In this document: positions 1 through 53,795 of the stretch, piece after piece | Layout of the letters: every line of letters starts with the position of its first letter | How positions within the stretch are numbered: position 1 is the stretch's first letter | From: Clostridia bacterium | GTDB taxonomy: Bacteria; Bacillota; Clostridia; Oscillospirales; Acutalibacteraceae | DNA length: 64,000 bases | Reading direction: 5' to 3' | NCBI GenBank assembly: GCA_017517865.1 | Contig: JAFWYB010000046.1 | Coordinates: forward strand, 26,936 to 90,935 | Program-made: the position numbers and the translations under genes | The notes under the pieces: generated by a model | The model's database searches: none | The model's input: the letters and a program-made list of their open reading frames with translations, nothing else | Told to the model about the DNA's origin: nothing

Positions 1-3000
1 CTTGTTGATACTCTTCTTGAAGACCTTCTCTTCACAGACGATATGATCAACAACCTTCTCGGTATGCTTGTAGGCTTACTCGGCGGCAAGCAGGTTAACG
101 ATATCCTTGTTATGCTTCAGGATGTTCTCAAGAACGGTCTCGATCTTGACATCAGACCTGCTGCATTCAAGGGCAACAACGAAACTCTCGATGCTCTTAT
201 CGGCGACGCTAAGACATGGAGCGAGGTTGCTAAGAATAACACCAAGTATGAATACACATATGAAACCGGTGAGGTTAAGGACGGTAAGCCCGTAACAGAA
301 ACATGGTACGGTGCTGAAGGCCTTACAGCTACAGAAATTGACCTTGACGGTGACGGCACTAAGGATAATGTAGCTCTTATCCCCGTTTACAACCAGATTC
401 AGAAGGTTGTAGAAATTAAAGCAGACGATCCCGCAACAGAAGCTAACGAAGCTGAAAGTGAGTACTACTACTATTACAACAAGGTAGTGGGTGACACTAC
501 TGAAAAGGTTGAAGTAGTTCTCAATAAGGCTAACGAAACAAAGATTACTGTAGACGGTGAAGAGATTGCTATCACTGCTTGGATGGTAGACGATACAACA
601 TCCAAGAAGACAGCCGTTAAGTTCGATTCAGAAACAGTTAAGTGGAACGTTCAGGATATGAACGGCTTCATCGATGTAGTCTGGGCTATCCTTGAACCCC
701 TTTCACCTGTTCTTGAATTATTCCTCACAGGTAAGAACATTGAAATCTACGGCGAAATCACAATCCGTGGCTTCGACGGTTATGAAGGCGTAATCCTTCC
801 CATCATTGAAGCTCTCGGTGTACCCGTTCTCAAGAAGGCTGACGGTACAGCATACCTTAACAGCTTCTATGAGAACCAGAGCGTATTTGAAGCAGCTGTT
901 TACGGCGGCCAGGGCGAAGATAACGACGGTAATTTCGTTACATATCCCGACGCTGATAAGTCAATTCTGCTTAAGTCAATCGTAAATGCACTTCTTGCAC
1001 TTGTCGATTCACTTTGCGACCGTCCTGTTTCAACTATCGCTACAATCCTTCCCTACCTTTCAAGATTCCTTGAGTCCGATGGTATTGACATCATTCTCGG
1101 CAACCTTCTTTCACCTGTAACTGCTATCACAGACCTCATCAAGAATATCTATGATCTCGACCTTCTCGGCATGGTTAAGGGTCTCCTTTACAACCTTGCC
1201 CATAAGGCTGATGCTCCTGCAGCAGCAGAAACAGCAGCAGAATACGTTGATCAGATGATCGACGAGGCTCAGGAAGCAAACAACGGTGCAGCTATTGATG
1301 CTATCGCAGTTGTCGATAACACTGCAGACGATCCTTCAACAGATAGCGGCGCAGGTATCGACTTCGGCAAGCTCAAGTTCATGGATATCCTCTGGGATCT
1401 CATTCTTGGCATCAAGATTGAAATCGAGGGTAAGGATCCCATCGCTCTTTCAGATATCATTAACGATCAGCTCTTTGCAACTCTCGCATCATGCGCATGG
1501 TATGACACAGAGGATGACGGCGACGTAATGATCAAGAGCCCCGTATTTGACACTACGAACCTTGACAACAGCTATATCGAAAACAAAGATTTAGCTAATA
1601 CAGAATACTATGTTGACCGTGAAACTGTTCTTCTTACAGTTCTCGAAACAATCGTATTCCAGCCCGGCGTGCGCGATCTTCTTGCAAACTTTGTTGCTAT
1701 GTTCGACTTCTCAGACGAAACAATCAACAAGGATTACAGCGCATTCAACGAAGACGGCAGCATCAATGTTAACGGTCTTCTCAGCGTACTCGTTTACGGC
1801 GTATTCAATGATCCTCAGGCTATTGAGGCTCTTCTGATCAACCTCCTTTCATGGTACAACGTTGTTTACGAGGAAGCACGTGTAGACGTTGCAGATAAGA
1901 CTCTTCCCGTTGTTGAGTGGGAAGAGATCGGTATCAGTGAAGCTGAGCTCGAAAACCTTCCTGCACAGCTTGATAACCTCATCACAGCAGTTCTTCCTCT
2001 CGTAGGCGAGCTTCTTCCCTCCTTCGGCGTAAATCTCGGTATTGACCTTAAGGGTGCAAACGTTAAGGAAGTTGTTGAAAACCTTCTTACATCACTCTTC
2101 GTTGATACAGCTGATAAGGCAGGTCTTGCTACAACAATCTTCACAGCACTCGTTAACCTCTTCGGTAAGGGTGACGGTCTCGACAGCGTTCTTGATCTCG
2201 TTTACGAGCTCACAGGCGGCGCTGACGGCGGTATCAACCTTAAGCTCACATACTTCAAGGCTCAGAGCGAAGCTATCGCAAATGTATTCGGCGAGGCTAA
2301 GACATGGGCTGAAGCATATCAGGCATTCAAGCCTGAAGACAGCGACAAGGCTGTAATTGCAAACGCAGACAGCTTCGGCGTTGAAGATTTCGACGATGTT
2401 CTTAATCTCCTTAAGGCTATCGTTGTTCCCTTCGTTCCCGTACTCAAGCTTCTCATGCTTGAAGACGGCGACCTCGTAGTTCTTGACGGCGTAACCGTTT
2501 CCGCAGGTGACGGCTATGACAGATTCGTTATCCCCGTAGCAGAAGCTCTCGGTATAACAATCGAAAAGGACAAGAATGATGTTGCAGCTATCGCAACAGA
2601 CGCAGAGTTCGCTGAATGGGTAATCGGCGGCATTCAGAAGCTCCTTGAAAAGGTTCTCAATGCTCCCGTTGCATTCATCATCGATCTTCTTCCCCAGCTT
2701 TCATTCTTCATCACATCAGAAGGCCTCGCACAGGCAGTAGAACAGCTTCTTGCTCCCGTTCTTACTCTTGTTGATATGGTTAACGCTATTACAGCTAAGG
2801 AAATTGCTGTTGAAGGCGGTTCAATCCAGGCTCTCGATGTATACGCATTCCTTGCAGACCTTCTCGGCAAGATCGGTCTCGACCTTGAAGGTGTAACAGA
2901 TGTTAACGGTATCGTTGACGCTCTTCTCACAGAAGAAGGCCTCATCGCTCTCATTGACGGTCTTGTAAACAAGGATAAGCAGCCCGGTGACGACAAGTAC

Positions 3001-6000
3001 GTTGACTTCAGCTTCCTTACTAAGGACGGCAAGGGCATCTTCACACAGATTGTTGAAAAGACAGTAGCAGTTGGTAACGTTGAAACAATGCGTTACTTCG
3101 GTGCACAGACAAGCGGTAATACACGCTTTGTTAAGGGTGCAACAGCTACAAGAGCAAATACAATCGTTCAGATTATCTCTGAGCTCGTTCTTGCAGAAGA
3201 CGGCCTCATCTTCGATATCCTCAATGTTGCAGGTGTTGACCTCAACGATGCTAAGAACGCAACAGTTAAGACAGTTATTGAAGGCATCACAGGCGAAAAC
3301 CGTTACTGCGTACTTCAGGTACTCCTTAACTACTTCAACCACTATGAGGTTGAAAACGATCTTCTTGAATACCTTTCATTCAAGGAAGAATCCTACGATT
3401 ATGAAGCATACTCAGTAGATTCAACTCTTACCTCACGTAAGGTAAGACGTGCAATCAAGAAGCTCGATAAGGCAATCCTTGCACTTATTCCCGATCTTCT
3501 CCCGCTCCTTGAAAATGTTGACTTCCTTAAGGATGCTCTCGCATCACTCAAGGATACGGACGGCAACTATCAGGGCGTAACGCTTGCTAAGGTTGCAGAA
3601 GCAATTCTTGCAGACCTTGCAATCAACGACGGCATGATGGATACTATCGTAGGTGCACTTGTAGGTGCTCTCGGTACAGGTAGTCTTGCAGAAACTCTCA
3701 ACACTATCCTTCCCATCCTCAATGACCTTCTTGAAATCAACTTCACACCTGTTGAGGTTGCTAAGAACGGCACAGCTCTTGCAGATGTAATCAACACTGC
3801 TGTTGCTGCTGCTGACCTTGAAAACGAAGACGGCACAACACGTGAAGCTACATGGGCCGACGTTGCTGCATATTACACCAACGCTGAAGGCAAGGTTGAG
3901 ATTTCAGGTATCAACTGGGGTATTGATGCAGCAGCAGATCTCAACGGTAAGATTAACGCATTCGTTAACATTATCTGGGCTCTTGCAGCTGAACTCGAAC
4001 CCGTACTCAACTTCCTCTTCAGAGGCGAAGATATCGTAATCAAGGGCAAGGGCGAAAACGCTCCCACAGCTCTTACAATCAAGGGCTCAGAAGGCTACGA
4101 ATATGCTATCGTTCCTCTTCTCAGAGGTCTTGCAGCTGACCAGTTCGGTACTATCAAGACTGCTGCAGAATATGAAGCAGGTAAGGGCAGTGCTGTAACT
4201 CTCACAGCTATTACAGACGGTGTACTCAATGTTGTTAACGCTCTTTGCAACTCACCTCTTGAGTATATCCTCACACTCGTTCCTTCACTCGCATACTTCA
4301 TCGAGTCAGACGGCGTTGAGAAGCTCGTTACAAACCTTCTCGCTCCCGTATTCGCACTCCTTGACGTTGCAGAACCCGCAGTAGGCGATCTTCTTAACGA
4401 TCTTCTCGGCGACGTTCTCGGCAACCTCCTTGGCGACTACATGCCCAAGGTTGACGGTATCGGTACTCCTGCAGAGAAAACTCTCTACGGTTACTACTAC
4501 ACAACAGAAGACGGTACAGTTGTAGATTACTACGATGACAGTGAAGGCGCAGCATCACTTACAACAGGCGGTAAGACATATACTCTTACACGCTACACCG
4601 GTGAAAAGGCAACAAAGACAGAAGCATACAAGACCTATACTCTTGATGAAATTGTTACCTACATCGGCACATCAGAGAACCTTGTAAATATCATAAACGA
4701 CCTTGTTGGCGGTCTTATCTTCAAGGACAGCGCAACAGGTGAAGAAGCAAATGCAGCTAAGCTCCTTGCCGATGACTTCTTCGAGAAGTATGTTGCTTAT
4801 GCAGTAGACATCAAGACTGAGGATACTGATAAGACCTATTTCGAAGCAGTAGTTATCGCAAACGGCGGTGCATTCGGCGGCATAGCCGGCAGCAAAATCG
4901 CTATCGCTTCAACCGACTGGAACGCAAATAACGATACAGCACACTACACCCTTACAGGTAAGGTACGTAACGTTGTTACCGCATTCACGGTTGACATCGC
5001 TGACTCACTTGTATACCTTCTTGACAACGTTGTTTCAGAAGAACTTCTTAACGCTCTTGTTCCCGCAAATATGATGGTTGAGGGTAACATTGTAGGTACA
5101 ATCATCACCAACCTCATCAATCTTATGGAAAAGGGCGACGCTAACGCAGCTCTTACACTCCTTGATATCATCGTAGCTCTCTTCGAAGGCTATGAAATCA
5201 AGTATTCAGAGTATAAGGAACTTCCCGACTTTGAAATCGACCATACAGGCGACATCGCAGCAGAAGCTCTTCCCGGCAAGCTTGATACAATTATCAACGA
5301 AGCTCTGCCTCTCGTTCTTACACTCCTCGTTAAGGGCGAAGCTGAGGAAGGCTCAATCCTTGACATTATCAAGACATCAGTAGCAGGTGATCTTGCTGTT
5401 GATACAAACGGTGTTGCAACAGAAACAAGAATTGAAAAGCTTGTTGCTGACATTATCGACGGCTTCGTAATCAACGGTGACCTTGACGTTATGAACCTCA
5501 TCGTTAACGCTGTTGTTGATATCCTCGGCGGTACCGAAATTATCGATACCATCCTTGGTATGATCAAGATCGGCAATTACAAGCTTACAGCAGCTGACTT
5601 CAAGGCTTCAATCAATACTCACTTTGCAGGTAAGGCTCAGTATGCAGATGCAGTTAGAGCTGTAAACGGCATTATCGGTGACGCAAAGACATGGGCAGAG
5701 GTTAAGGCTAACGCTGCTAAGACAGCTGAAGGCAAGTGCGCAATTGATGCTGATTGGGGCGTAACAGACCTTGACAGCCTCATCGATGCTATCCTTGTTC
5801 TCGTTCAGCCTCTCACACCTGTTCTTCAGGTACTCTTCCAGGGCAAGACTCTCACTCTCCTCTCCTCTAACGGCGAATATGCAGGTGACTTCGATACAGA
5901 CGTTCCCGGCGCAACAGATAACGACGACAGAGCAGAAGAAATCGAGTCAGGCGTAATCCTCGGTGACGGCTATCTTGAAATCCGTGGCTCAAAGGGCTAC

Positions 6001-9000
6001 GAGCAGGGTATCCTTGCACTCGTAGACGCTCTTGACCTCGACGTTGACGGTCTTCCCACAGCTGAAGCTTACAACGCTTCAAACGACATTGAAGTGGTTC
6101 TCGGTTCAGTTCTCGATATCGTTCTCGCTCTCGTAGACGGTATTGCAGAAGCTCCCATCACATTCATTGCTGAACACCTTGCTGGTCTCCTCTACTTCGT
6201 AACAGCTGACAACATTTCAGTGCTTGTTGATAACATCATTGCACTCGTTTGGGGTCTCCTCGAAGTTGTTGAGCCTCTCACAGGTGAAACAGATGCACTC
6301 ATCGAATCACTCCTCAAGGTGGACCTTGACAATTACATCACAACAGACGGTCTCCTCGATCTTATCAACGGTCTTCTTGAAGGCAAGGTTGACCTTGTAA
6401 TCACTGTTGATATGCTTAAGGAACTCATCGCTGCAATCGGTGAAGCTAAGCCCGCAAGCGAAATCGGTATCTCCAAGACACCTGTAACAGGTTCAAAGAC
6501 ATACTTCGTAGACGGTCTTCTCACCTTCGCAATTGATACAGTTCTTCCCATCTTCGCAGATGAAGAAGATGCAGATGCAATCATCAATCAGGTAATCACA
6601 TATCTCAGCGCTGACGGCGCAGTTGCAGGTATAATCAACTTCCTCAACACTCTTACCACCAAGTATGTTGTTGAATTCTTCGCAATCGAAGATCCCGAAG
6701 CAGCTCTTCAGAAGCTTCAGGTTAAGTATGCAACAGCAAATAAGGAACAGGGTGAACGCCTTGTAACAAAGGCTGAGGCAGATAAGGCTCTCGAGAACCT
6801 CGACGCTCTCGTAGCTGAAATCCTTCCCATGGTAGGTCTCCTTGAAGAAGGCGAAACACTCGCTGACTTCGTATCAGGTCTCCTTCTCAACGACAAGATG
6901 GCAAGCACAATCGTTGGTCTTCTTGCCGGTGTATTCGGCGGTCTCAACTCAGACGTTCTTAACATTATCAACATCGTTGGCGATGCTCTCGGCGAAGAAG
7001 TAGACATCTCCGTTGCAACATATAAGCAGGATGCTGATATCGCAGGCTTCTTCGGTGAAGCTACCACATGGGCAGAGGTAACAGAAGCTTATACCGTAGA
7101 CGGTAAGGCTGATTACACCTACGCTTGGGGTATTGATGCTCTCACAACAACAGATGCTAAGATCGAAAGATTCGTAGCTATCCTTACATCTTTCCTCGCT
7201 CCCATTGATTTCGTTCTTGAAGTTCTCCTTGCAGGCGGTACAGCAACCGGTAATGCAGCAGATGCAGATTCAATCAGCGCATTCAAGGAAATCAACATCA
7301 TGGGCGGCAGCGGCTACAACTACGCTATCATTCCTCTTATGGAAGCTCTCGGCGTACCCGCTGACAAGATTCTCACTCAGGCAGAATACGAAGATCAGAT
7401 AGAAGCAAACGGCACTCTCAGCTACATCCTCGAGACAGTTCTCAAGTATGTTGTTGCAGGTCTTGATGCTCCCGTTAACTTCGTTCTCAGCCTCATCGGC
7501 AACCTTGCATACACAATCAGCAAGGACGGCCTTACAACAATCGTCGGCAACCTTATTGCTCCCGTAAGCGCACTCATCAAGTCAATTGAAGGCGTACTTC
7601 CCGTAGCTATTGTAATTGAACTTGATAAGATCTTCGCTGAAGCAGACGCTGACGGCAAGAAGCCTTCAGTTCTCACCTTCGCAATGGGCGACCAGGTTGC
7701 AGAAGGCAACTACAACGTAGGTCTCACACTTGACCTTGACGGTGCAACCCTTGAAGACCTTATAGATACAGTTATTGCCAAGTATGCTTCAGACCTCGGT
7801 CTCAACCTTGACCTCAGCTTCCGCGATCTCGCAGCAGGCTCAGCTAAGGTTGACGCAAACGGCGCAATTATCTTCAACAATTCAAAGGTTAATGCAAACA
7901 ACACTGTTTGGGATATTCTCAACGGTACATGGGGCAAGAACATCGAAGGTGATCCTGCTGATACCATCATCACACTTCTTGATATGGTACTCACAACAGA
8001 AAACATCAACGCTGTTCTCGGTCTCGTACTCAAGGATAAGACTCTCGACGAAACAATCGACGGTCTTCTTGACGGCAAGCTCGGCGTTCTTAAGGACGTT
8101 GCAAACACAGCTATCAACGATCCCGCACTCCTTGTTGACACCGTTATTAAGGTACTCGCTGCAACAGATTACGAAGTAGAAAACCTTGCTGTTCTCTACG
8201 ATACTCTTGCAGCACAGCTTGAATACACATACAGCACAGAAATGCCCAAGTCAAAGGTTGAGCTCGCTCTTAACAAGCTTGATGCAGTTCTCAACAACGC
8301 TATCGACGATGTATTCGTAATCCTTAAGGACCTTGACAATATGCCTGCTCTTATCACTGATATCGCTAACAGCGGTAAGACCGGCAATATCACAGAGCTC
8401 GTTGAATGGGTACTCGGTGAGTATGCATTCACAGACGACCTTATGAACACCATCGTTGGTGCTATCGCAGGCATCTTCGCAGGTATGGACGCTAACACCT
8501 TCAAGACTGTTAATGACATCCTTGTTAAGGCTCTCGGCGTAAGCATTGACCTTGCAGAGTTCAAGAAGGGCACATATCTTGCAGCATACTTCGGCGAAGC
8601 AACAGCTTGGTCAGAGGTAACTGTAGACAAGACATACGAATGGGGCTTTGCAACTGCAACAGCAGCAGAGAAGGAAGAACTCTTCATCGATATCATCCTT
8701 GAAGTAGTAGCTCCCTTCAGCAAGGTTCTCGACTTCCTCTTCAGAGGCGAAAACGTTAAGATTCTCATCGACGGCCTTGAACTCAAGGGCGGCAACGGCT
8801 GGGCTAACGTAATCGTACCTCTCGGTAAGGCTCTCGGCATTGAACTTAATGCAAACGAGGCTTCGGCAGTTGCATGCGTAGAATCACTTCTCCGCGGCAT
8901 CCTCGGCCTTGTTGACAGAATCGGCGCAGCTCCCATCAACACAATAGTAGACATCGTAGCAGGTCTCTCCTACTTCCTTGCTTCTGACGGTGTTGACGAA

Positions 9001-12000
9001 GCTGTTAACGGTATCCTTGCTCCCATCACAGGCTTCCTTTCACTCCTTGGTGCTATCCTTGATATGGACGATGTAAACGCACTTCTCAAGGGTCTCATCG
9101 GTATGGACCTTGACGACATTGCAGACATCGCAGGCGATAAGGGCGAAAAGCTTGTTCAGGGTGTAAATAACCTCATCAACGGTCTCAAGTTCACAGATAC
9201 AGCAACAGGTGCTGAGTCATATCTCAACCTTCTTCCCGCTGACTTCTTCGAAAAGATTGCTCAGTATGCTATCACATACGACGAAGCAGCCGTTGTGACT
9301 CTCACAGAAGACGAAGTTGGCTATGATTATCAGCCCAACCACAAGCATGTAACAGACTTCGAGGTTGACGGTGCAGACGGTCTTATGTATGTACTTTCAA
9401 CAGTATGCTCAACAGAGTTCCTTGAAGCTCTTGCTACTAAGCTCGGCATCAACACTGAAACACCTGACCTTGTTGGTAAGATCATCCTCGGTCTTGCAGG
9501 TAAGCAGGATTCAATCGTTGACATTATCGTAACTCTTCTTACAGATTACACTGTAGAATACGAAGCATACACACGTCAGCCCATCGACAAGATTGATGTT
9601 GACCACATTGATCCTATGGACGAAGAAAGCATCAAGACAGCTCTTCAGGCTATTGACGCTCTTGTTGCAGCTCTCGTTCCCATGTTCGTTAAGGTTGACG
9701 GCCAGAGTGTTGATTCACTCAAGGGTCTCCTTACAGGTCTCCTTGCAGATCTCGACATTGCTGACCTCATCATGGGCGCACTTGTACCCGCAATTGCAAA
9801 CATTGACCTTGACACAATCGTAGGTTATGTTGAAGATCTCACTAACCTTAAGGGTCTTGACCTCAGCCCCGCAGCATTTGCTAACGGCCGCTTCGGCTCT
9901 AAGCTCGGTGAATTCATCGGCGAAGCTGAAACATGGGCAGAAGTACGCGATGCACGCTTCACAAAGGGCGCAGACGGCAAGTACACAATCAATGAATTCG
10001 ATTGGAACCTTGAAATGAATAAGGGCTTCGACGGTCTCGTTAAGTTCATCTGTGACCTCGCAATGCCTCTTGATAAGGTACTCGAACTCCTTCTTGTTGG
10101 CGAAAAGCTTATCGTAATTCCTGACGAGACAGCAGGCGACGTTGTTGCAGGCGAATACGACCACATCGAAATCGTTGGCGGCGAAGGCTACAACTACGCA
10201 ATTATTCCTCTCCTCGAAGCACTCGGTATTGAAGCACTCAGCAAGGCTGATTATGTAGCTCTTGCTAAGGGTACTGCAAGTGTTGACGGTAAGGGTCACC
10301 TGTATCCCATCCTTAACGCTATCATCGGTAAGGTTGATACACTCCTTGACGCTCCTCTTGCAACTCTCCTTCCCATGCTTGCAAACCTTGCATACTTCGT
10401 AGGTACAAACGGTATTAACAACATCGCTAAGAACCTCCTCGCATTCGCTAACTATCTTGTTCTCAAGATCGATCCTATATTCCATATCGGTGTTAAGGTT
10501 GACCTTGGTGCAGAAACAATCTTCGAATACGAGCTCGGCGACGAAGAAGGTAAGAATGTTGCTGCAGGTGTAAACATCAATGTTGACCCGACAGACCTTG
10601 TAAATCTTGTAAACGATCTGCTTGCAGACATCAAGATCAACGACAAGGCTCTCGGTCTCACACTCAACCTCAACTGGCTTGACGTGGCTGCTAAGATGGC
10701 AGCAGTTGATGAAAACGGTGATCTCATTGAAATCCCGACAGCTCAGGTAACTGCTGACGGTACACCCGCAACATGGTATAACATTATAGGTGATGCTGAA
10801 GATACCTTCACAACACTTATCAATACAATCCTCACAGATGCTAATACTCTTGCAATCGCAGACCTCATCAGCGGTCTTCTCGAAAATGCAAACCTTGAAG
10901 TTGAAGGCCTCGACGTTAAGGGTCTCATCAACGACATCATCTACGAGCAGAACGGTATTAAGGAACTCATCGCTGCAGTGGTAATGCTTCTCAGCGGTCA
11001 GTACGACATCACTAACTACGATATAGTTTACAAGTTCCTCGGTGAAATTGCTGAAAGCGCAAACAACGGCACTCTCAACACAGCAATCGAAAAGCTTGAC
11101 GCTATCATCACACGTGAAGTTGTTGAAATCATCCCGATGTTCATCGGTGAAGATGCAACAGGCATCCTTAAGACTCTCCGCGATGCATGCACAGCTGACG
11201 GTGTAACAGACCTCAGCGATATGATCGATTATCTCCTTAAGTCACTTCTCTTCACAGAAGCTAACTACGATAAGCTTATCGGTATTCTCGTTAAGGCTAT
11301 CGGCGGCTTCCTCACTGCAGATCTCTGCGGAACACTTAAGGATATCCTCGGCATTGACCTTGCTCCTGCAGCATTCGCAGCAGCAACAGAAAATGCAGAT
11401 ATCATCGCATACGTAGGCACAAGCGCAAGCTGGGCAGACGTATGGACAGCACACAGCACTGACGGTGTAGCAAATGTTTACGATTGGAATATCGAAACAT
11501 CAGATGACTTCATCGACGCAGTTCTCGATCTTCTCAAGCCGCTTAACGGCATACTCGACTTCATCTTCGCGAACGGCTCAATCAAGCTTCTTCCCGATGG
11601 TGATACAGCAGCTGTTACACTTCCCGGCGGCAACGCATACAATAAGGCAATCGTGCCTCTGTTCAAGGCTCTTGGCGTTGACCTCGCTGAAGCAGCAACA
11701 ACATCCGCCGGTCTCGATAACCTCGTTGAAGGTCTTATCGGTGAAAACGGTCTTGTTAATAAGCTCGGCGCAGCTCCTCTCAAGACAATCTTTGAGCTTG
11801 TTGCAGGTCTCTCATACCTTGTAGCAAACGAAAATCTCGAACCCATCATCAAGAATCTCCTCGCACCCGTATTCTCAATCCTTGATCTTCTTGAGCCCGT
11901 AATCTCAAGAGAACAGATTGACGAAATTCTTAAGGGCTTCATCAAGATCGGTGGCAAGGCATACGGTCTTACAGATCTCCTTGGCATCAGCGGCAACAAC

Positions 12001-15000
12001 GGTGCAAACCTTGTTGAGCTTGTAAATGCTCTTATCGGCGGCTTCGAGGTTAAGAACGACAAGGGTGAGGTTGTAGACGTTATCAACCTTCTCAAGTCAG
12101 ACTTCTTCGTAGAACTCTCCAAGCACGCAGTTGACGTAACAACTCCTGCAGGCCTTGTAGATCCCGACGACATCGGTACTGTTGTAACAGCATGGACATA
12201 CGATTCAGCTGAAACTCTTATGTTCATCCTCGACACAGTATTCAGCGAAGACTTCCTTAAGGTTCTTGCTAACATGATAGGCAAGGGTGAGCAGAATACA
12301 ATCACAACCATTATCACAGGTCTTGCTGATAAGGAAATGTCAGTGGTTGAGCTCATCACAATGCTCCTTGACAATTACGATATCTCTTATAAGAAGATTC
12401 CTCAGGCTGACCTTGAGGGTGATGCAGCCGACTACACAGCATTTGCAGAAAATGCTGCAGAAGTTAAGGATAACCTTCCCGGCGCAATCGCCGCAATTGA
12501 CGGTCTTGTTCCCACCGTTCTCAGCTTCATTGAGATCAACGGTAAGAAGTACGCATCACTCGATGCACTTGTGAACGACCTTCTTGCAGGCGCAGACCTC
12601 GGCGGTCTCCTTATGGAACTCCTTGTACCCGTACTTGCAGATCTTGACAACAACGAAAGCCTTGATCTCGATGCAATCCTCGGTTATGTAAATAACCTTA
12701 CAAATCTCAACATCAAGATCGATCCTCAGACCTTCAAGACCTCAGCTAAGTTCGGTTCCAAGCTTGCTGACTTCATCGGCGAAGCTCAGACATGGGCAGA
12801 AGTTCGCGATGCACACTTCACAAAGGGTGAAGACGGCAAGTGGACAACAGCATATAACTTCGGCATCAATACTCTTGACGACGTAGTTAAGTTCGCTGCA
12901 GACCTTCTTATGCCTCTCGACATAGTATTCCAGGTACTTCTCGGCGGTAACCAGATTATCGCTCTCGAAGACGAGGATACAGTTCGCCGTGCAGACATCA
13001 GAATCAACGGTGGCTTCGGCTACAACTATGCACTCATTCCTCTTCTCGAGGCTCTCGGTGCAACACCCATCAGCCAGGCTGAATACGATGCTAAGATTGC
13101 TGCAGACGGTGCACTCAAGCCCGTACTCGATATGATCGTAGAAAGAGTAAATGAAATCCTTGAAGCTCCCGTAAGTGAGGTTCTCGGCCTTCTTGCAAAC
13201 CTCTTCTACTTCATCGGTTCAGACGGTATCAACACAATCGTTTATAACCTTGTTGCTCCCGTAACAGAGCTTCTCGACAAGGTATGCGAAGTATATCCCA
13301 TCAGCATATACGTTGGTATTGTTGACGGTGCATTCAAGGCAGACTTCGATATCGAAAACAAGAAGGGTCTTGCTCCCGGCTTCGTATTCGACATCGGTGC
13401 AGACGATCTTGCAGCACTCATCAGCGGCCTTCTTGACGGAATCGAAATCAACGGTGAAAAGCTTGGTCTCACTCTCAACCTTGACTGGCTCGCACTTGCA
13501 GCTGCAATGGCTAAGAGAAACGGCAACGGCGACATCATCTACACCAACTCTGCAATGGTTTACGAATATAAGAACTCCAAGGCAGAAGGTGCAGCAGATG
13601 TTAACGATCCTTACAAGAACATCTCCGGCGAAGCTGCAGATGCACTTGTAACTCTCCTCAATACAATTCTTACAGCAGAAAATGCTGCAGTTATTGAAGA
13701 CCTTGTTCTCGGTCTCCTCGGCGATACAGAGCTTCCCACAGAGGTTGAAGACCTCATCAGCAAAGTACTCGGTGACGAAGACGGTCTTGTAAATCTTATC
13801 GGTACTGTAATCCTTGTTCTTACAGGCGGTTACGATATCCATACTCTCAACCTCATCTTCAAGTTCCTTGGTGATGTAGATTACGACGTTGATAATGCTG
13901 ACGAAGCTATCGAAACTCTCGACAGACTTATCGGTAAGGCAGTACCCGTTGTTCTTCCTCTCATTGCAGGTGAGAACCCGACAGGTATTCTTAAGGATAT
14001 CTCAGATGCAGCAGCTAATGTTCCTGAAGGTACTCCCGTTCTTACTCACATCATCAACACTCTCCTCGGCGATCTCGTATTCACCGACGAGATGATGAAG
14101 ACAATTACAGACCTTGTAATCGGCACAATCGGCGGCTTCCTTACAGAGGATCTTTGCGGTACTCTTAAGGACATCATCGGCATTGACCTTTCACCCAAGG
14201 CCTTTGCAGATGCAAGCAACAACAATATATTTGCAGCATACATCGGTGATGCTAAGAACTGGGCTGAGGTACAGGCTGCCCATAAGACAGATGACGGCTA
14301 CGAAGCTATCTTCACAGGTGTTGACACTCAGGCTGAATTCCTTGACGCTGTCTGCGCAATCCTTGAAGCAGTAGAGCCCGTACTCGCATTCCTTCTTACC
14401 GGCGGTGACCTCACAATTGCAGGCGGTTACATTGCTGATTCAAACATCAAGCTTCTTGGTAACAAGGGTTACGAAAATGCTGTTCAGTATCTCCTCAAGG
14501 GTCTCGGTATCGAATACAAGGCTCTTCAGAGCGGCGACAACGCTGTTGATGCTCTCAGATACACAGTTGAAAGCATTCTCGGTCTTGTTGATGACCTCGG
14601 CAAGGCTCCCTTCGATACAATCCTTTCACTCGTAGCTAACCTCAGCTACCTGATTGCAAACAACGGTATTGAAGTAATTCTCACAAACCTTCTCTCACCT
14701 GTACTTTCACTTGTTGACGCACTTGAAGGCACAATCTCGAGAGCAGAGCTCGATGCACTCATCGAAACATTTGTAAACGTTACTCTTCCCAACGGTAAGA
14801 AGCTTAACCTTACAAATATCCTTACAATCGCAGGCGATAACGGTAAGATTCTCGTTGACCTCATCAACGGTCTCCTTCCCAATATCGAAATCAAGGATGA
14901 AAACGGCGAAGTTCTTCACGTAATCAATGCTCTTCCCGACAGCTTCTTTGTAGACCTTGCCAAGGCTTCAATTGAAGTAACAGAATTTGCTGATCCTGCT

Positions 15001-18000
15001 AAGACAGCTATCGGCGATGCTGTTAAGACTTGGGATGTAAGCACAGGCGACGCACTTGTATACGTTCTTAAGACAGTTCTTACAGATGACTTCCTTGAAA
15101 TCCTCTGCACAGCACTCAACCTTAAGGCTACAAACGATGACGGCACAGACAATATGGTTTACGGCATCATCACAAGCCTTGCAGGTAAGGACGAAGCAGT
15201 TCTCGACGTTCTTCTTTCACTCCTCGTTGAATACAGTGTTGTATACAGCGCATATGTGATCGAAGATGAAGATAAGCCCGTACGTCTTGATGAAAACGGC
15301 AACCCCGTTGATACAAATACAATGGGCGACCTCGTTGCAAATCTTGACGCACTTATCCCGACAGTTCTCGGTCTTGTAGGCCTTAAGGACAGCAACGGTG
15401 AAGCAGTGACAGATCTTAAGTCCTTCGTAACAGATCTCCTTGTAAATGCAGATCTCGGTAAGGTTCTTATGAATCTCCTTGTTCCTCTCCTTGCAAACCT
15501 TCCCGCAGAAACAATTGATACTGTTCTCGGTTATGTAACAGAGCTTACAAACCTCACAGACCTTGACATTTCACCCGTAGCATTCGCTACAATGGGCAAC
15601 TTCGGCTCTAAGCTCGGCGACTTCATCGGCGAAGCAAAGACATGGGCAGAGGTTCGTGATGCACGCTTCGATAAGGTTGTTGACGAAAATGGCGCAGTAA
15701 GCTATACCATCAAGCCTTACGACTTCGGCATCAATGAAGTTTACGACCTTGTAAACTTCGTAGCAGATCTTACCGCTCCTCTTGACTGCATCCTTGCTCT
15801 CCTTCTCCAGGGCGGCAACAACCTTGCAGTTCTTGACGAAATCAAGGTAATGGGCGGCAACGGCTACAACTACGCAATTATCCCGCTCCTTGAAATCCTC
15901 GGCGTTGACGCTATGAGCCAGGATGCATACAACGATGCAGTTGAAGCAAACAACGGCAGCACTCTCTACCCGATCCTTACTCAGCTTATCGATAAGGTAT
16001 TCGGTACAGACGGCGTTCTTGAGAATCCCGTAGGCTGGCTTGCAGACATTCTTGCAAATCTCTGCTATGCTCTTGCAAACGGTCACCTCACAACAGTTGT
16101 TGATAACCTTCTTGCACCTGTTAATATGCTTGTTGCTAAGGTTGATAAGATTGTACCTGTTGCAATCTACATTGATCTTGCATACCTCGGCGCAGAGCAG
16201 ACCGAAACAAATAAGATTCTCAACCTCTTCATCGGTGAAGCACATCCCGGTGTTGAAGCGGGTATCCACGTTAACGTTGACGGCGATGCAATCGCAAGAC
16301 TTCTCAGCAACCTTCTCCAGGGCATCAAGCTCAAGGATAAGAACGGCAATGAATTTGCTCTCGTTGGTCCTGAAGGCATTGACCTTGATTGGGAACAGCT
16401 TGCTCTTGAAGCAGCAGCCGGTGAAAACGGCAAGGTTGTATTCGAAGCAACTAACTTCGTAACAACTCTTGACAGCTACACAGGCGTTGCATACAAGACT
16501 CTTAAGGGCGACGAAGGCGAAACCTTCATGACTCTTATCTCAACAGTTCTTGAAGCAATCGACGTTAAGGAACTCCTTGTAAATCTCGGCGTTGAAATTC
16601 CTGAAGCATTCCAGGGTCTCATCGACGAAATCATTGAGCATCCCGAAAAGATCGGCGACATCATTGGCGGTCTCTTCGGCGACAGCGACAGATACCAGCC
16701 CGTTCAGAACAGACCTGTTGATGTAAGCGCAACGGTTGATTACAGCAGTTACCTCACATTCACAGAGGAAAATGCTGATACAATTGCAAGCAACATCGAC
16801 AAGCTCGTAGCTGACATTCTCAGCCAGACAGAGTTCGGTTCACTCAGAGGTCTTATCTCCGGTTATGTAAATAACGATATGGTTAACAGCCTCCTTGATA
16901 AGATCTTCGGCCTTCTTGCAAGCGACTCAGTAGCCGGTATACTCGGTACTGTTAAGGATCTCGAGTTCTACGTCAAGAACGTAGGTGACGAGGGTCAGGG
17001 CACACGCCTTGTAATCGACCTTACACCTTACGGCTTCAAGACAGCAGTTGAATCTCTTGATCTTGCAGGCAAACACAGCTACATGAAGGGCTTTGCAGCT
17101 AAGCTTGCTAATGCAACAGAAGAAACCACATGGGCAGAAATCGGCTCAATGGCTGGCATCAACTGGGGCATTGCAAACGGCGACATTACAGCATTTGTAA
17201 GAGCATTCGCCGGCGTACTCACACCGCTTAACGGTATCCTCGAGCTTCTCCTTATGGGCGAAGGCAGAGCACTTAACGTTCTCGGTCTTGTAGATATCAA
17301 GGGCGGCAACGGCTACGATTACGCAATCATCCCGCTTCTTGAAGCATTCGGTCTCACCTCAGCTCAGGTTAAGACTCAGGTACAGTATGCACAGGCAGTT
17401 GTAAACGATGAAACTCAGCTTCTCGGTTATATCCTTGAAAGAGTTGCATTCTTCGCTAACAACCTTCTTGAGAAGCCCATTGATACACTTCTCACAATTC
17501 TTCCCAACCTTGCATACTTCTTCAGCAACGACGGTCTCCTTCTTACTGTGAAGAACCTTCTTGCTCCCGTTTACGGTATCCTTAATCTTGTACTTCCCAT
17601 GCTTGGCATCAAGCTTGAAGATTATCTCGAACTCGAGAAGCTTCTCAACAGCATCGACATCGGTATCCCCGTATTCGGTCTCAAGTACAACTTCAGAATT
17701 CCCGAAATTGATTGGGTAGAGCTTGTTGAACTTGGCGGCGCTAAGGCAGAAGAAGTTTCAACCTCAAGAACTAACCCGGGCAACGCAGCAAATGCTGAAA
17801 CTTGGGCTAACTCCTTCAAGACAGAAATGCTCGGCTCAACACCCGAAAGAGCTGTTGACCAGGGTCTTGAATACTACGCACATTACGTAGACGGTAAGGA
17901 TCTCAGTGACGCATCACTCTTCAAGAATACTCAGAAGAAGATTATCGCTGATAAGGGTGATACTCTCACAGTAGTATTCACATGGGTATTCGATATGTTC

Positions 18001-18444
18001 TCATCCGAACAGAACAGAGAAGCTCTCGTTCAGTGGATTGTAGACTTCTTCGAACTCCAGAGCGGTGCAGAAACAACAGTAAGATATGCTGTTAACGAGC
18101 TCTTCAACCAGGCTCAGATCTATAACTCATCCGACATCATCGTATCTGTTCTCTTCTACTTACTCGGTATGGGCGTTGTAATTGATGCAACTCTTATGGG
18201 TAGCGTAGCAGACATCCAGGCCATCTTCGAACAGCTCTTCGGAGCAGTAGGTTCAGGTAAGAACGCTTATGCAACAATTGCTAAAATTATGGAAGAACTT
18301 ACAGGCGTCTGGGATGATACAATCGGTGACAACGATGACTATGAGGATGCAAATAAGGAAACAGAAGAAACTCTCAACTGGTTCCAGAGACTTATCAAGA
18401 AGATTAAGGAATTCTTCCAGAAGATTTTCAGCATCTTTAAGTAA
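1..18444 (+). CDS. giant acidic modular repeat protein, 5' end outside window
   Basis: The frame is open from base 1, so the start lies upstream; 6147 residues are visible and end in TAA at 18444. I do not recognise the family. The chain consists of 12 diverged modules of about 440-700 residues. Each has a Trp motif (GEAKTWAEV-like), then a Gly-Tyr motif (GYNYAIIPLLEALG-like), a helical stretch of the type APxxxILxLLANLAYFI, and NLLAPVxxLLD. Between them lie hydrophobic Leu/Val/Ile helices and many Asp/Glu residues. Cys is very rare. Leu is coded almost only by CTT/CTC, which suggests strong expression. The C-terminus, after an Asp/Glu-rich patch, is a basic amphipathic helix (FQRLIKKIKEFFQKIF). 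No LPXTG motif, dockerin or transmembrane anchor is visible at this end; a signal peptide cannot be judged. A surface or secreted structural role is inference only. A terminator follows directly. Confidence 0.9.
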   Translation, partial: LVDTLLEDLLFTDDMINNLLGMLVGLLGGKQVNDILVMLQDVLKNGLDLDIRPAAFKGNNETLDALIGDAKTWSEVAKNNTKYEYTYETGEVKDGKPVTETWYGAEGLTATEIDLDGDGTKDNVALIPVYNQIQKVVEIKADDPATEANEAESEYYYYYNKVVGDTTEKVEVVLNKANETKITVDGEEIAITAWMVDDTTSKKTAVKFDSETVKWNVQDMNGFIDVVWAILEPLSPVLELFLTGKNIEIYGEITIRGFDGYEGVILPIIEALGVPVLKKADGTAYLNSFYENQSVFEAAVYGGQGEDNDGNFVTYPDADKSILLKSIVNALLALVDSLCDRPVSTIATILPYLSRFLESDGIDIILGNLLSPVTAITDLIKNIYDLDLLGMVKGLLYNLAHKADAPAAAETAAEYVDQMIDEAQEANNGAAIDAIAVVDNTADDPSTDSGAGIDFGKLKFMDILWDLILGIKIEIEGKDPIALSDIINDQLFATLASCAWYDTEDDGDVMIKSPVFDTTNLDNSYIENKDLANTEYYVDRETVLLTVLETIVFQPGVRDLLANFVAMFDFSDETINKDYSAFNEDGSINVNGLLSVLVYGVFNDPQAIEALLINLLSWYNVVYEEARVDVADKTLPVVEWEEIGISEAELENLPAQLDNLITAVLPLVGELLPSFGVNLGIDLKGANVKEVVENLLTSLFVDTADKAGLATTIFTALVNLFGKGDGLDSVLDLVYELTGGADGGINLKLTYFKAQSEAIANVFGEAKTWAEAYQAFKPEDSDKAVIANADSFGVEDFDDVLNLLKAIVVPFVPVLKLLMLEDGDLVVLDGVTVSAGDGYDRFVIPVAEALGITIEKDKNDVAAIATDAEFAEWVIGGIQKLLEKVLNAPVAFIIDLLPQLSFFITSEGLAQAVEQLLAPVLTLVDMVNAITAKEIAVEGGSIQALDVYAFLADLLGKIGLDLEGVTDVNGIVDALLTEEGLIALIDGLVNKDKQPGDDKYVDFSFLTKDGKGIFTQIVEKTVAVGNVETMRYFGAQTSGNTRFVKGATATRANTIVQIISELVLAEDGLIFDILNVAGVDLNDAKNATVKTVIEGITGENRYCVLQVLLNYFNHYEVENDLLEYLSFKEESYDYEAYSVDSTLTSRKVRRAIKKLDKAILALIPDLLPLLENVDFLKDALASLKDTDGNYQGVTLAKVAEAILADLAINDGMMDTIVGALVGALGTGSLAETLNTILPILNDLLEINFTPVEVAKNGTALADVINTAVAAADLENEDGTTREATWADVAAYYTNAEGKVEISGINWGIDAAADLNGKINAFVNIIWALAAELEPVLNFLFRGEDIVIKGKGENAPTALTIKGSEGYEYAIVPLLRGLAADQFGTIKTAAEYEAGKGSAVTLTAITDGVLNVVNALCNSPLEYILTLVPSLAYFIESDGVEKLVTNLLAPVFALLDVAEPAVGDLLNDLLGDVLGNLLGDYMPKVDGIGTPAEKTLYGYYYTTEDGTVVDYYDDSEGAASLTTGGKTYTLTRYTGEKATKTEAYKTYTLDEIVTYIGTSENLVNIINDLVGGLIFKDSATGEEANAAKLLADDFFEKYVAYAVDIKTEDTDKTYFEAVVIANGGAFGGIAGSKIAIASTDWNANNDTAHYTLTGKVRNVVTAFTVDIADSLVYLLDNVVSEELLNALVPANMMVEGNIVGTIITNLINLMEKGDANAALTLLDIIVALFEGYEIKYSEYKELPDFEIDHTGDIAAEALPGKLDTIINEALPLVLTLLVKGEAEEGSILDIIKTSVAGDLAVDTNGVATETRIEKLVADIIDGFVINGDLDVMNLIVNAVVDILGGTEIIDTILGMIKIGNYKLTAADFKASINTHFAGKAQYADAVRAVNGIIGDAKTWAEVKANAAKTAEGKCAIDADWGVTDLDSLIDAILVLVQPLTPVLQVLFQGKTLTLLSSNGEYAGDFDTDVPGATDNDDRAEEIESGVILGDGYLEIRGSKGYEQGILALVDALDLDVDGLPTAEAYNASNDIEVVLGSVLDIVLALVDGIAEAPITFIAEHLAGLLYFVTADNISVLVDNIIALVWGLLEVVEPLTGETDALIESLLKVDLDNYITTDGLLDLINGLLEGKVDLVITVDMLKELIAAIGEAKPASEIGISKTPVTGSKTYFVDGLLTFAIDTVLPIFADEEDADAIINQVITYLSADGAVAGIINFLNTLTTKYVVEFFAIEDPEAALQKLQVKYATANKEQGERLVTKAEADKALENLDALVAEILPMVGLLEEGETLADFVSGLLLNDKMASTIVGLLAGVFGGLNSDVLNIINIVGDALGEEVDISVATYKQDADIAGFFGEATTWAEVTEAYTVDGKADYTYAWGIDALTTTDAKIERFVAILTSFLAPIDFVLEVLLAGGTATGNAADADSISAFKEINIMGGSGYNYAIIPLMEALGVPADKILTQAEYEDQIEANGTLSYILETVLKYVVAGLDAPVNFVLSLIGNLAYTISKDGLTTIVGNLIAPVSALIKSIEGVLPVAIVIELDKIFAEADADGKKPSVLTFAMGDQVAEGNYNVGLTLDLDGATLEDLIDTVIAKYASDLGLNLDLSFRDLAAGSAKVDANGAIIFNNSKVNANNTVWDILNGTWGKNIEGDPADTIITLLDMVLTTENINAVLGLVLKDKTLDETIDGLLDGKLGVLKDVANTAINDPALLVDTVIKVLAATDYEVENLAVLYDTLAAQLEYTYSTEMPKSKVELALNKLDAVLNNAIDDVFVILKDLDNMPALITDIANSGKTGNITELVEWVLGEYAFTDDLMNTIVGAIAGIFAGMDANTFKTVNDILVKALGVSIDLAEFKKGTYLAAYFGEATAWSEVTVDKTYEWGFATATAAEKEELFIDIILEVVAPFSKVLDFLFRGENVKILIDGLELKGGNGWANVIVPLGKALGIELNANEASAVACVESLLRGILGLVDRIGAAPINTIVDIVAGLSYFLASDGVDEAVNGILAPITGFLSLLGAILDMDDVNALLKGLIGMDLDDIADIAGDKGEKLVQGVNNLINGLKFTDTATGAESYLNLLPADFFEKIAQYAITYDEAAVVTLTEDEVGYDYQPNHKHVTDFEVDGADGLMYVLSTVCSTEFLEALATKLGINTETPDLVGKIILGLAGKQDSIVDIIVTLLTDYTVEYEAYTRQPIDKIDVDHIDPMDEESIKTALQAIDALVAALVPMFVKVDGQSVDSLKGLLTGLLADLDIADLIMGALVPAIANIDLDTIVGYVEDLTNLKGLDLSPAAFANGRFGSKLGEFIGEAETWAEVRDARFTKGADGKYTINEFDWNLEMNKGFDGLVKFICDLAMPLDKVLELLLVGEKLIVIPDETAGDVVAGEYDHIEIVGGEGYNYAIIPLLEALGIEALSKADYVALAKGTASVDGKGHLYPILNAIIGKVDTLLDAPLATLLPMLANLAYFVGTNGINNIAKNLLAFANYLVLKIDPIFHIGVKVDLGAETIFEYELGDEEGKNVAAGVNINVDPTDLVNLVNDLLADIKINDKALGLTLNLNWLDVAAKMAAVDENGDLIEIPTAQVTADGTPATWYNIIGDAEDTFTTLINTILTDANTLAIADLISGLLENANLEVEGLDVKGLINDIIYEQNGIKELIAAVVMLLSGQYDITNYDIVYKFLGEIAESANNGTLNTAIEKLDAIITREVVEIIPMFIGEDATGILKTLRDACTADGVTDLSDMIDYLLKSLLFTEANYDKLIGILVKAIGGFLTADLCGTLKDILGIDLAPAAFAAATENADIIAYVGTSASWADVWTAHSTDGVANVYDWNIETSDDFIDAVLDLLKPLNGILDFIFANGSIKLLPDGDTAAVTLPGGNAYNKAIVPLFKALGVDLAEAATTSAGLDNLVEGLIGENGLVNKLGAAPLKTIFELVAGLSYLVANENLEPIIKNLLAPVFSILDLLEPVISREQIDEILKGFIKIGGKAYGLTDLLGISGNNGANLVELVNALIGGFEVKNDKGEVVDVINLLKSDFFVELSKHAVDVTTPAGLVDPDDIGTVVTAWTYDSAETLMFILDTVFSEDFLKVLANMIGKGEQNTITTIITGLADKEMSVVELITMLLDNYDISYKKIPQADLEGDAADYTAFAENAAEVKDNLPGAIAAIDGLVPTVLSFIEINGKKYASLDALVNDLLAGADLGGLLMELLVPVLADLDNNESLDLDAILGYVNNLTNLNIKIDPQTFKTSAKFGSKLADFIGEAQTWAEVRDAHFTKGEDGKWTTAYNFGINTLDDVVKFAADLLMPLDIVFQVLLGGNQIIALEDEDTVRRADIRINGGFGYNYALIPLLEALGATPISQAEYDAKIAADGALKPVLDMIVERVNEILEAPVSEVLGLLANLFYFIGSDGINTIVYNLVAPVTELLDKVCEVYPISIYVGIVDGAFKADFDIENKKGLAPGFVFDIGADDLAALISGLLDGIEINGEKLGLTLNLDWLALAAAMAKRNGNGDIIYTNSAMVYEYKNSKAEGAADVNDPYKNISGEAADALVTLLNTILTAENAAVIEDLVLGLLGDTELPTEVEDLISKVLGDEDGLVNLIGTVILVLTGGYDIHTLNLIFKFLGDVDYDVDNADEAIETLDRLIGKAVPVVLPLIAGENPTGILKDISDAAANVPEGTPVLTHIINTLLGDLVFTDEMMKTITDLVIGTIGGFLTEDLCGTLKDIIGIDLSPKAFADASNNNIFAAYIGDAKNWAEVQAAHKTDDGYEAIFTGVDTQAEFLDAVCAILEAVEPVLAFLLTGGDLTIAGGYIADSNIKLLGNKGYENAVQYLLKGLGIEYKALQSGDNAVDALRYTVESILGLVDDLGKAPFDTILSLVANLSYLIANNGIEVILTNLLSPVLSLVDALEGTISRAELDALIETFVNVTLPNGKKLNLTNILTIAGDNGKILVDLINGLLPNIEIKDENGEVLHVINALPDSFFVDLAKASIEVTEFADPAKTAIGDAVKTWDVSTGDALVYVLKTVLTDDFLEILCTALNLKATNDDGTDNMVYGIITSLAGKDEAVLDVLLSLLVEYSVVYSAYVIEDEDKPVRLDENGNPVDTNTMGDLVANLDALIPTVLGLVGLKDSNGEAVTDLKSFVTDLLVNADLGKVLMNLLVPLLANLPAETIDTVLGYVTELTNLTDLDISPVAFATMGNFGSKLGDFIGEAKTWAEVRDARFDKVVDENGAVSYTIKPYDFGINEVYDLVNFVADLTAPLDCILALLLQGGNNLAVLDEIKVMGGNGYNYAIIPLLEILGVDAMSQDAYNDAVEANNGSTLYPILTQLIDKVFGTDGVLENPVGWLADILANLCYALANGHLTTVVDNLLAPVNMLVAKVDKIVPVAIYIDLAYLGAEQTETNKILNLFIGEAHPGVEAGIHVNVDGDAIARLLSNLLQGIKLKDKNGNEFALVGPEGIDLDWEQLALEAAAGENGKVVFEATNFVTTLDSYTGVAYKTLKGDEGETFMTLISTVLEAIDVKELLVNLGVEIPEAFQGLIDEIIEHPEKIGDIIGGLFGDSDRYQPVQNRPVDVSATVDYSSYLTFTEENADTIASNIDKLVADILSQTEFGSLRGLISGYVNNDMVNSLLDKIFGLLASDSVAGILGTVKDLEFYVKNVGDEGQGTRLVIDLTPYGFKTAVESLDLAGKHSYMKGFAAKLANATEETTWAEIGSMAGINWGIANGDITAFVRAFAGVLTPLNGILELLLMGEGRALNVLGLVDIKGGNGYDYAIIPLLEAFGLTSAQVKTQVQYAQAVVNDETQLLGYILERVAFFANNLLEKPIDTLLTILPNLAYFFSNDGLLLTVKNLLAPVYGILNLVLPMLGIKLEDYLELEKLLNSIDIGIPVFGLKYNFRIPEIDWVELVELGGAKAEEVSTSRTNPGNAANAETWANSFKTEMLGSTPERAVDQGLEYYAHYVDGKDLSDASLFKNTQKKIIADKGDTLTVVFTWVFDMFSSEQNREALVQWIVDFFELQSGAETTVRYAVNELFNQAQIYNSSDIIVSVLFYLLGMGVVIDATLMGSVADIQAIFEQLFGAVGSGKNAYATIAKIMEELTGVWDDTIGDNDDYEDANKETEETLNWFQRLIKKIKEFFQKIFSIFK
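217..17133 (+). repeat. twelve-module protein repeat array (Trp-motif register)
   Basis: The codon of the conserved Trp in the (T/S/N)W(A/S)(E/D) motif of each module starts at 217, 2305, 3853, 5692, 7069, 8608, 9934, 11431, 12793, 14260, 15643 and 17131. Spacing is irregular for the first four (696, 516, 613, 459 residues), then alternates between long and short. Synonymous sites differ strongly between modules, so the repeats are old at DNA level rather than recent copies. Confidence 0.85.
7069..17130 (+). repeat. alternating A/B super-repeats, period about 2.85 kb
   Basis: A modules (Trp codons at 7069, 9934, 12793, 15643) share GYNYAIIPLLEALG and a segment like GLTLNLDWLxLAAxMA. B modules (8608, 11431, 14260) share AGLSYLxAN, SREQIDEILK-like helices, a DFFVxLxKxA segment and (V)xTAWxxD. 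The A-to-A distances are 2865, 2859 and 2850 nt; B-to-B distances are 2823 and 2829 nt. The module at 3853 is also B-like; the last one (17131) is a terminal variant. Confidence 0.75.
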
Positions 18445-53782: not shown

Positions 53783-53795
53783 TGTTACTTTCCTT

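Follow-up and report, generated by a model that had tools for sequence, protein, structure and literature searches.

What does the reading frame encode that is already open at the first base of this stretch of DNA, and can a frame of such size be genuine? The whole stretch, referred to here as the window, comprises 64,000 nucleotides (G000:C36:26936-90935), its first base being G000:C36:26936. On the + strand, frame 1 stays open from the first base until a stop codon at 18442-18444. An earlier note had described this frame as a giant single-frame repeat protein of more than 6100 residues; the frame is indeed uninterrupted over 1..18444, and the gene is longer in full. It is cut by the window and extends in a single frame from a Met codon at C36:17702, 9,234 bases 5' of the first window base, to the stop at C36:45379. 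The window holds its 3' two thirds (1..18444, + strand), corresponding to residues 3079-9225 and the stop codon.

The complete protein has 9,225 residues, a calculated mass of 996 kDa and a pI of 4.17. Its 1,386 Asp and Glu residues against 600 Lys and Arg residues result in a net charge of -786, with a negative sum in 19 of 19 500-residue windows. The characterisation as acidic, Cys-poor and Leu-rich is in line with these values and with the contents of Cys (30 residues, 0.33%) and Leu (12%). GC skew is negative across the gene (window 1-18000) and mostly positive over the remaining window, which is probably due to the gene's own choice of codons and residues. Further downstream, genes for Gln-tRNA ligase and Glu-tRNA ligase adjoin each other on the - strand (52127-55445), an ordinary arrangement.

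Inspection of the upstream contig for a signal peptide had been proposed, and a start of this kind is present. The protein begins with MKVGKKVLSCILAIIMIVSSVSVCFGVLGADA, preceded by a good ribosome binding site, and this N-terminus was judged by eye to be signal-peptide-like. A comparable start is kept in all eight giant genes examined. The N-terminal head of about 900 residues is non-modular. An origin of the head from decayed modules was considered, but alignment to the module was confined to the end of the head (about columns 935-1026), and Pfam yielded no match for the head up to an E value of 0.04.

The modular part of the chain was delimited with an HMM seeded with four modules of two paralogues from the same genome and run through five iterations. 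It detected 15 modules, extending from about residue 1000 to residue 9146. Twelve of these fall in the window, whose edge truncates the first of them, which confirms the 12 modules counted previously from the window. Modules span about 450-800 residues with an HMM core of approximately 400, are diverged from each other and are joined by short linkers. All lie on the + strand. Module 4 (1..1896, residues 3030-3710, its start cut by the window edge) was placed by HMM, while modules 5 (1933..3393), 6 (3427..5232, with an insertion) and 7 (5257..6699) were placed by HMM and alignment. For modules 8 to 15, BLAST was used in addition. Modules 8 (6763..8220), 10 (9616..11049), 12 (12463..13878) and 14 (15307..16731) are mutually similar and were designated type A; the same applies to modules 9 (8245..9603), 11 (11062..12417) and 13 (13882..15279), designated type B. 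This likeness indicates that the C-terminal half of the protein grew via duplication of an A-B pair. Among the giant's modules, module 15 (16759..18204) scored best in BLAST against the two-module paralogues discussed below.

Only three columns are invariant in the 15 aligned modules (D14, W107 and P247, numbered according to the first row), although the Trp, GYxxAIIPLLEALG-type and NLLAPV motifs named in the earlier note recur in register. The highest identity between full modules within the gene is 43% and the best strong BLAST pair reached 40%. Near-identical modules are thus lacking, making collapse or expansion of repeats during assembly unlikely. Repeats within a module were searched for and none was convincing (best probability 11%). 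Periodicity of hydrophobicity in the module region gave a z value of 13.8 at 100 degrees compared to five shuffles and remained under the shuffles at 140-180 degrees. From hydrophobic periodicity only, the modules are predicted to be mainly helical.

Searches of domain libraries support the earlier statement that the pattern corresponds to no named domain. Nothing above the cut-off was obtained from Pfam for the giant in pieces or for the 15 modules singly, and residues 6079-9225 gave no family up to an E value of 1. The Pfam searches also gave no hydrolase domain, no SLH domain and no FIVAR or GA match (whole giant in pieces and 15 single modules), and the C-terminal sequence lacks an LPXTG signal and any other known wall anchor. 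NCBIfam and PHROGs returned matches in single members of the 15 modules only, none above the cut-off. The best library score was a LolC match with an E value of 0.001 in one module of 15, which was treated as chance. PADLOC gave no match for the modules, no credible match came from PDB sequence profiles (best E values 0.67 and 1.1), and phage and plasmid collections queried with one module gave no match. Among the literature entries listed, no title or abstract start describes the giant protein. The modules hence appear to constitute a family without a name in the catalogued libraries, with a firm anatomy and a hypothetical function.

The uniform use of CTT and CTC for Leu had been taken as a sign of high expression. 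These two codons account for 98% of 1,104 Leu codons in the giant gene, compared to 83% of 611 in 16 other ORFs hand-picked from the 51 listed in the window. The CAI of the giant gene is 0.669, while the same 16 ORFs range from 0.304 to 0.642 and the two paralogues from 0.32 to 0.33. The reference consisted of four translation genes only, of which the EF-G gene was assigned by family search and the other three were named from sequence and position; their own CAI values of 0.554-0.832 enclose that of the giant. Codon usage thus resembles that of a highly expressed gene and approaches that of the translation genes.

A promoter of the TTGAAA/TATACT type was recognised by eye 5' of the giant gene, and the leader contains the block AGTTATAGGTGYCTYTAT. 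Promoter and 5' leader (L009:10556-10705, equal to G000:C36:17555-17704 and located 5' of the window) are kept in blocks, with 22 leaders in 21 genomes of the genus. In the genome of origin, AGTTATAGGTGYCTCTAT with up to two mismatches gave one match and the control none; a looser form of the leader added two matches with two mismatches each. Throughout the genus, the leader pattern with up to two mismatches was matched 39 times compared to 29 times for the reversed control, hence the weak matches are background. Thirty of the 39 were checked, the other nine including one with one mismatch. Of the matches checked, 22 precede a giant start: 18 of these are exact, three carry two mismatches and one a single mismatch. 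The other eight, each with two mismatches, are located elsewhere. The 18 exact matches to the 18-base block all lie 114-188 bases 5' of a giant start, and the exact block was found nowhere else among the matches checked. With 18 of 18 exact matches in front of a giant start, the leader is in blocks better conserved than much of the protein, and the promoter-leader region appears to be specific to the giant gene. It was not seen by eye in the more distant loci L061 and L062. The leader was also considered as a structured RNA and rejected: the covariation term of RNAalifold was unfavourable (+1.64) and a double change occurred in one of 26 pairs. All Rfam matches of the leader were under the gathering scores.

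The module is present in all 34 genomes of the genus. Frames of more than 8,000 residues were found in at least 16 of these, the genome of origin included, and reach up to 11,580 residues among the matches listed, some frames being cut by contig ends. Genome G002 (97% complete) has three module matches, of which the two listed sit in a frame of 890 residues; based on this short frame and the lack of a checked leader match before a giant start, the giant is probably absent there. Beyond the genus, an even draw of the family gave module matches in 32 of 200 genomes (20 of 135 genera). In the order, three of 295 genomes matched, one of them outside the family (G292, E value 1.7e-15). The class (one of 341) and the phylum (one of 348) each returned the genome of origin only. 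The 22 loci obtained in a scan of named entries belong without exception to metagenome-assembled Clostridia, Oscillospiraceae, Ruminococcaceae, Clostridiales or Ruminococcus, and a ruminant is named for 12 of them.

Eight giant genes from seven genomes were read, encoding proteins of 9,225 to 11,576 residues with mutual identities of 31-77%. Exactly 15 modules are present in seven of the eight; the exception, in G009, has 18, its surplus modules being mostly its own duplications. A tree was calculated from 151 modules. For 14 of the 15 positions, the modules of the seven genes form a separate clade that in some cases also takes in modules of G009; for position 10 they do not, as three of its members stand beside position 12 with weak support. 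Genome G012 carries two giant genes on contigs C21 and C108, each with a leader, the products of which have 10,186 and 10,010 residues and are 63% identical.

The giant gene is under purifying selection. Compared to the nearest species examined, dN is 0.156 and dS 0.828 (dN/dS about 0.19), with 1427, 1093 and 3616 substitutions at codon positions 1, 2 and 3 in 9,096 codons; in other pairs of giant genes, synonymous changes are at or near saturation. In the closest species pair, dN peaks in codons 8000-9000 (0.29-0.31), whereas across seven giant genes invariant residues are fewer in the head than in the C-terminal part. A fast-evolving outer tip is therefore not cleanly seen.

The chain ends with LNWFQRLIKKIKEFFQKIFSIFK, an aromatic and cationic sequence. 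Its last 23 residues (18373..18441, + strand) form a predicted cationic amphipathic helix, for which we propose a role as surface tether. The last windows of the protein carry a charge of +4 per 18 residues, and among the 9,208 18-residue windows of the giant the helical hydrophobic moment peaks in the tail (ranks 2, 21, 1 and 16 in four other genes tested). A similar tail was found in all eight giant genes read and in each of the 21 frames of relatives that contain a stop codon (of 22 loci examined, the other runs off its contig). In the most distant loci, L061 and L062, only the tail pattern is kept; in L057-L059 a Pro/Thr-rich spacer precedes it. A phrase describing such a C-terminal amphipathic helix was not found among the papers listed in a literature search.

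Within the genome of origin, a profile of the tail also matched two other large, secreted-looking proteins with E values of 3.9e-10 and 5.1e-7, one with three List_Bact_rpt repeats and the other with a thioester domain and Big_2. The remaining eight matches were weak (0.186 to 9.65). The two good matches suggest a shared retention signal. Secreted-looking proteins with similar amphipathic tails are encoded at L097:2255-7132 (-), L098:2120-4240 (+), L099:2434-9003 (+) and L100:1805-5335 (+), two of them assigned by good profile scores and two by a weak score and by eye only. In the protein of L099, groups of Cys and His flank the tail on both sides, and partly so in the 2,342-residue protein encoded before the giant.

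The latter protein (L009:3272-10300, + strand) is secreted-looking and has homologues before four other giants. It shows a strand-like periodicity, a trend opposite to that of the giant's modules, and its only match in Pfam was to CarboxypepD_reg, below the threshold. Secreted-looking proteins of 2,185-2,383 residues precede the giant in five of the six genes with a readable upstream side and are mutually 26-52% identical. In this count, one gene lies between in G031 and the partner is absent in G009; two genes are at contig ends, and the copy in G012b was read in part. More distant genes differ, hence giant and upstream partner form the unit, not a wider region. Genes of the DHDPS family and of the GlcNAc 2-epimerase family are located 3' of the giant in the genome of origin and are not kept in other species. 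An ABC gene was not found in any of the giant neighbourhoods examined, nor directly 3' of the giant.

Smaller relatives share the module family with the giant. The genome of origin encodes two such paralogues of 874 and 866 residues, both of which begin with a signal-peptide-like sequence, contain two modules and end in a hydrophobic segment; two-module proteins overall have about 850-925 residues. They differ from the giant in this presumably transmembrane segment, in place of which the giant has its amphipathic tail, in the ABC ATPase-FtsX gene directly 3' and in their low codon adaptation (0.32-0.33), the giant having neither of the latter. The next gene 3' encodes an ABC ATPase in seven of eight loci checked; in the eighth, L037, the flank examined contains no ABC gene. 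In the genome of origin the ATPase is fused to an FtsX-type permease, with MacB, far under the cut-off, as the best NCBIfam match. A relationship between the module and the ectodomain of this ABC protein was considered and rejected (best E value 0.075, HH probability 0.2%). At L012:5374-12902 (-), on contig C44, genes for a patatin-like phospholipase, an acyltransferase-like protein (our own label, NCBIfam giving the gene no family), the two-module protein and the MacB/FtsX-type ABC protein follow on the same strand, while a different, MarR-like gene end lies 5' of the two-module genes in L027 and L029. The best explanation is that the giant's modules derive from a membrane-anchored two-module ectodomain protein or share an ancestor with it.

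Start, tail, fixed length, codon bias and anionic composition point to a surface structural protein. The giant would be secreted and highly expressed, a polyanionic protein of about 1 MDa at the cell surface that forms a coat or brush, or rods, with the head outward and the tail as tether; we consider the chances of this reading to be about even. The signal-peptide-like start would direct the chain out via the general secretory route (Sec). Its roughly 900 non-modular N-terminal residues would form the head, and the 15 mainly helical modules, in fixed order and with A/B alternation in the C-terminal half, would form the rod or brush. The cationic, aromatic C-terminal helix would hold the chain at the cell envelope, a topology modelled on the two-module paralogues with their C-terminus at the membrane. 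Many such chains could give the cell a coat or brush whose thickness is fixed, or else long rods for adhesion. From the sequence we infer export, the helical rod shape, tethering by the tail, the orientation and the role as coat or adhesin. The previous idea of a surface fibre, adhesin or protective coat is strengthened in its first element by the signal-peptide-like start and the conserved C-terminal helix, and stays conjectural as to the specific role. Given its shortness, the tail may fail to hold back a chain of 1 MDa, in which case the giant could be released. More tentatively, and with less confidence than in the structural reading itself, we propose a new megadalton all-helical family in which 15 modules, constant in number and order throughout the genus, act like a ruler for a coat or brush of fixed length. 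A dedicated promoter-leader would drive expression close to the level of translation proteins, and the tail would be a general, as yet unnamed surface-retention signal of these Clostridia.

Other functions were weighed against this reading. The giant might instead soak up amphipathic or hydrophobic molecules, each Leu-rich anionic helical module binding a cationic peptide, a lipid or a comparable ligand outside the cell, with the paralogue handing a ligand of this kind to the ABC transporter. The position of the two-module gene directly before the MacB/FtsX-type gene in seven of eight loci, the negative charge in all nineteen 500-residue windows and the lipid-related neighbours in the C44 locus are consistent with such binding. 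These neighbours are, however, not general (L027 and L029), ABC genes are missing from the giant neighbourhoods examined, and the module is unrelated in sequence to the transporter's extracellular domain. We regard this function as unlikely. The same gene neighbourhood could point to a partner in envelope sensing or wall remodelling, comparable to PcsB or EnvC for FtsEX, with the giant spanning the wall and transmitting force or distance, since MacB/FtsX-type ABC proteins are described as mechanotransmitters (PMC6355983, PMC5985334). The giant does not lie beside such a gene and no hydrolase domain was found, and we regard this role as very improbable.

It is also conceivable, though distinctly unlikely, that the chain is exported whole and then cut between modules into 15 units. 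Short linkers separate the modules, and it has been suggested that other proteins of extreme size undergo processing (PMC13104272), but a fixed order and number of modules are more naturally explained by a protein that works as a whole. An assembly artefact, one of the refuting outcomes named in the earlier note, or a decayed repeat array has a negligible probability. The genomes involved all seem to be draft metagenome assemblies; the same architecture nevertheless recurs in separately assembled species, dN/dS is about 0.19 and near-identical repeats are absent, which refutes an artefact.

If the surface structural reading is true, these bacteria spend much on one surface molecule that has no name in annotation libraries, and the tail provides a handle on surface retention in these Clostridia that does not depend on the usual sorting signals. 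As the module count is fixed, it becomes a testable question whether length itself is selected. With the ABC-linked two-module relatives, small and tractable proteins are at hand for learning what the modules bind.

Giant surface proteins of a similar kind have been described. Embp of Staphylococcus epidermidis and Ebh of S. aureus are cell surface proteins of about 1 MDa with long series of alpha-helical repeats (PMC7587433, PMC9302970), the predicted length of Ebh being 320 nm (PMC9302970). They match the giant in size (996 kDa) and differ at the C-terminal end; Embp is described as containing 50 repeats of 125-170 residues made of FIVAR and GA units, compared to 15 modules of about 450-800 residues in the giant. 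Giant1-3 of Apilactobacillus kunkeei are extracellular proteins of thousands of residues with an N-terminal head, an alpha-helical repeat rod and a positively charged C-terminus that is proposed to bind the wall loosely (PMC12863079). By description, the positively charged end is shared with the giant, whereas the beta-solenoid head and SH3b-like C-terminus reported for Giant1-3 contrast with a short helix-like end and the absence of an SH3b match in Pfam. Proteins of about 40,000 residues from gut Oscillospiraceae (PMC13104272) come from a similar bacterial group; as far as described, they are set apart by their many InterPro domains and by being four times longer. On the best reading, the giant would work like Embp/Ebh and the A. 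kunkeei giants, belonging to neither where this was tested. It represents a conserved, very large and unnamed protein family among a known kind, the giant surface proteins.
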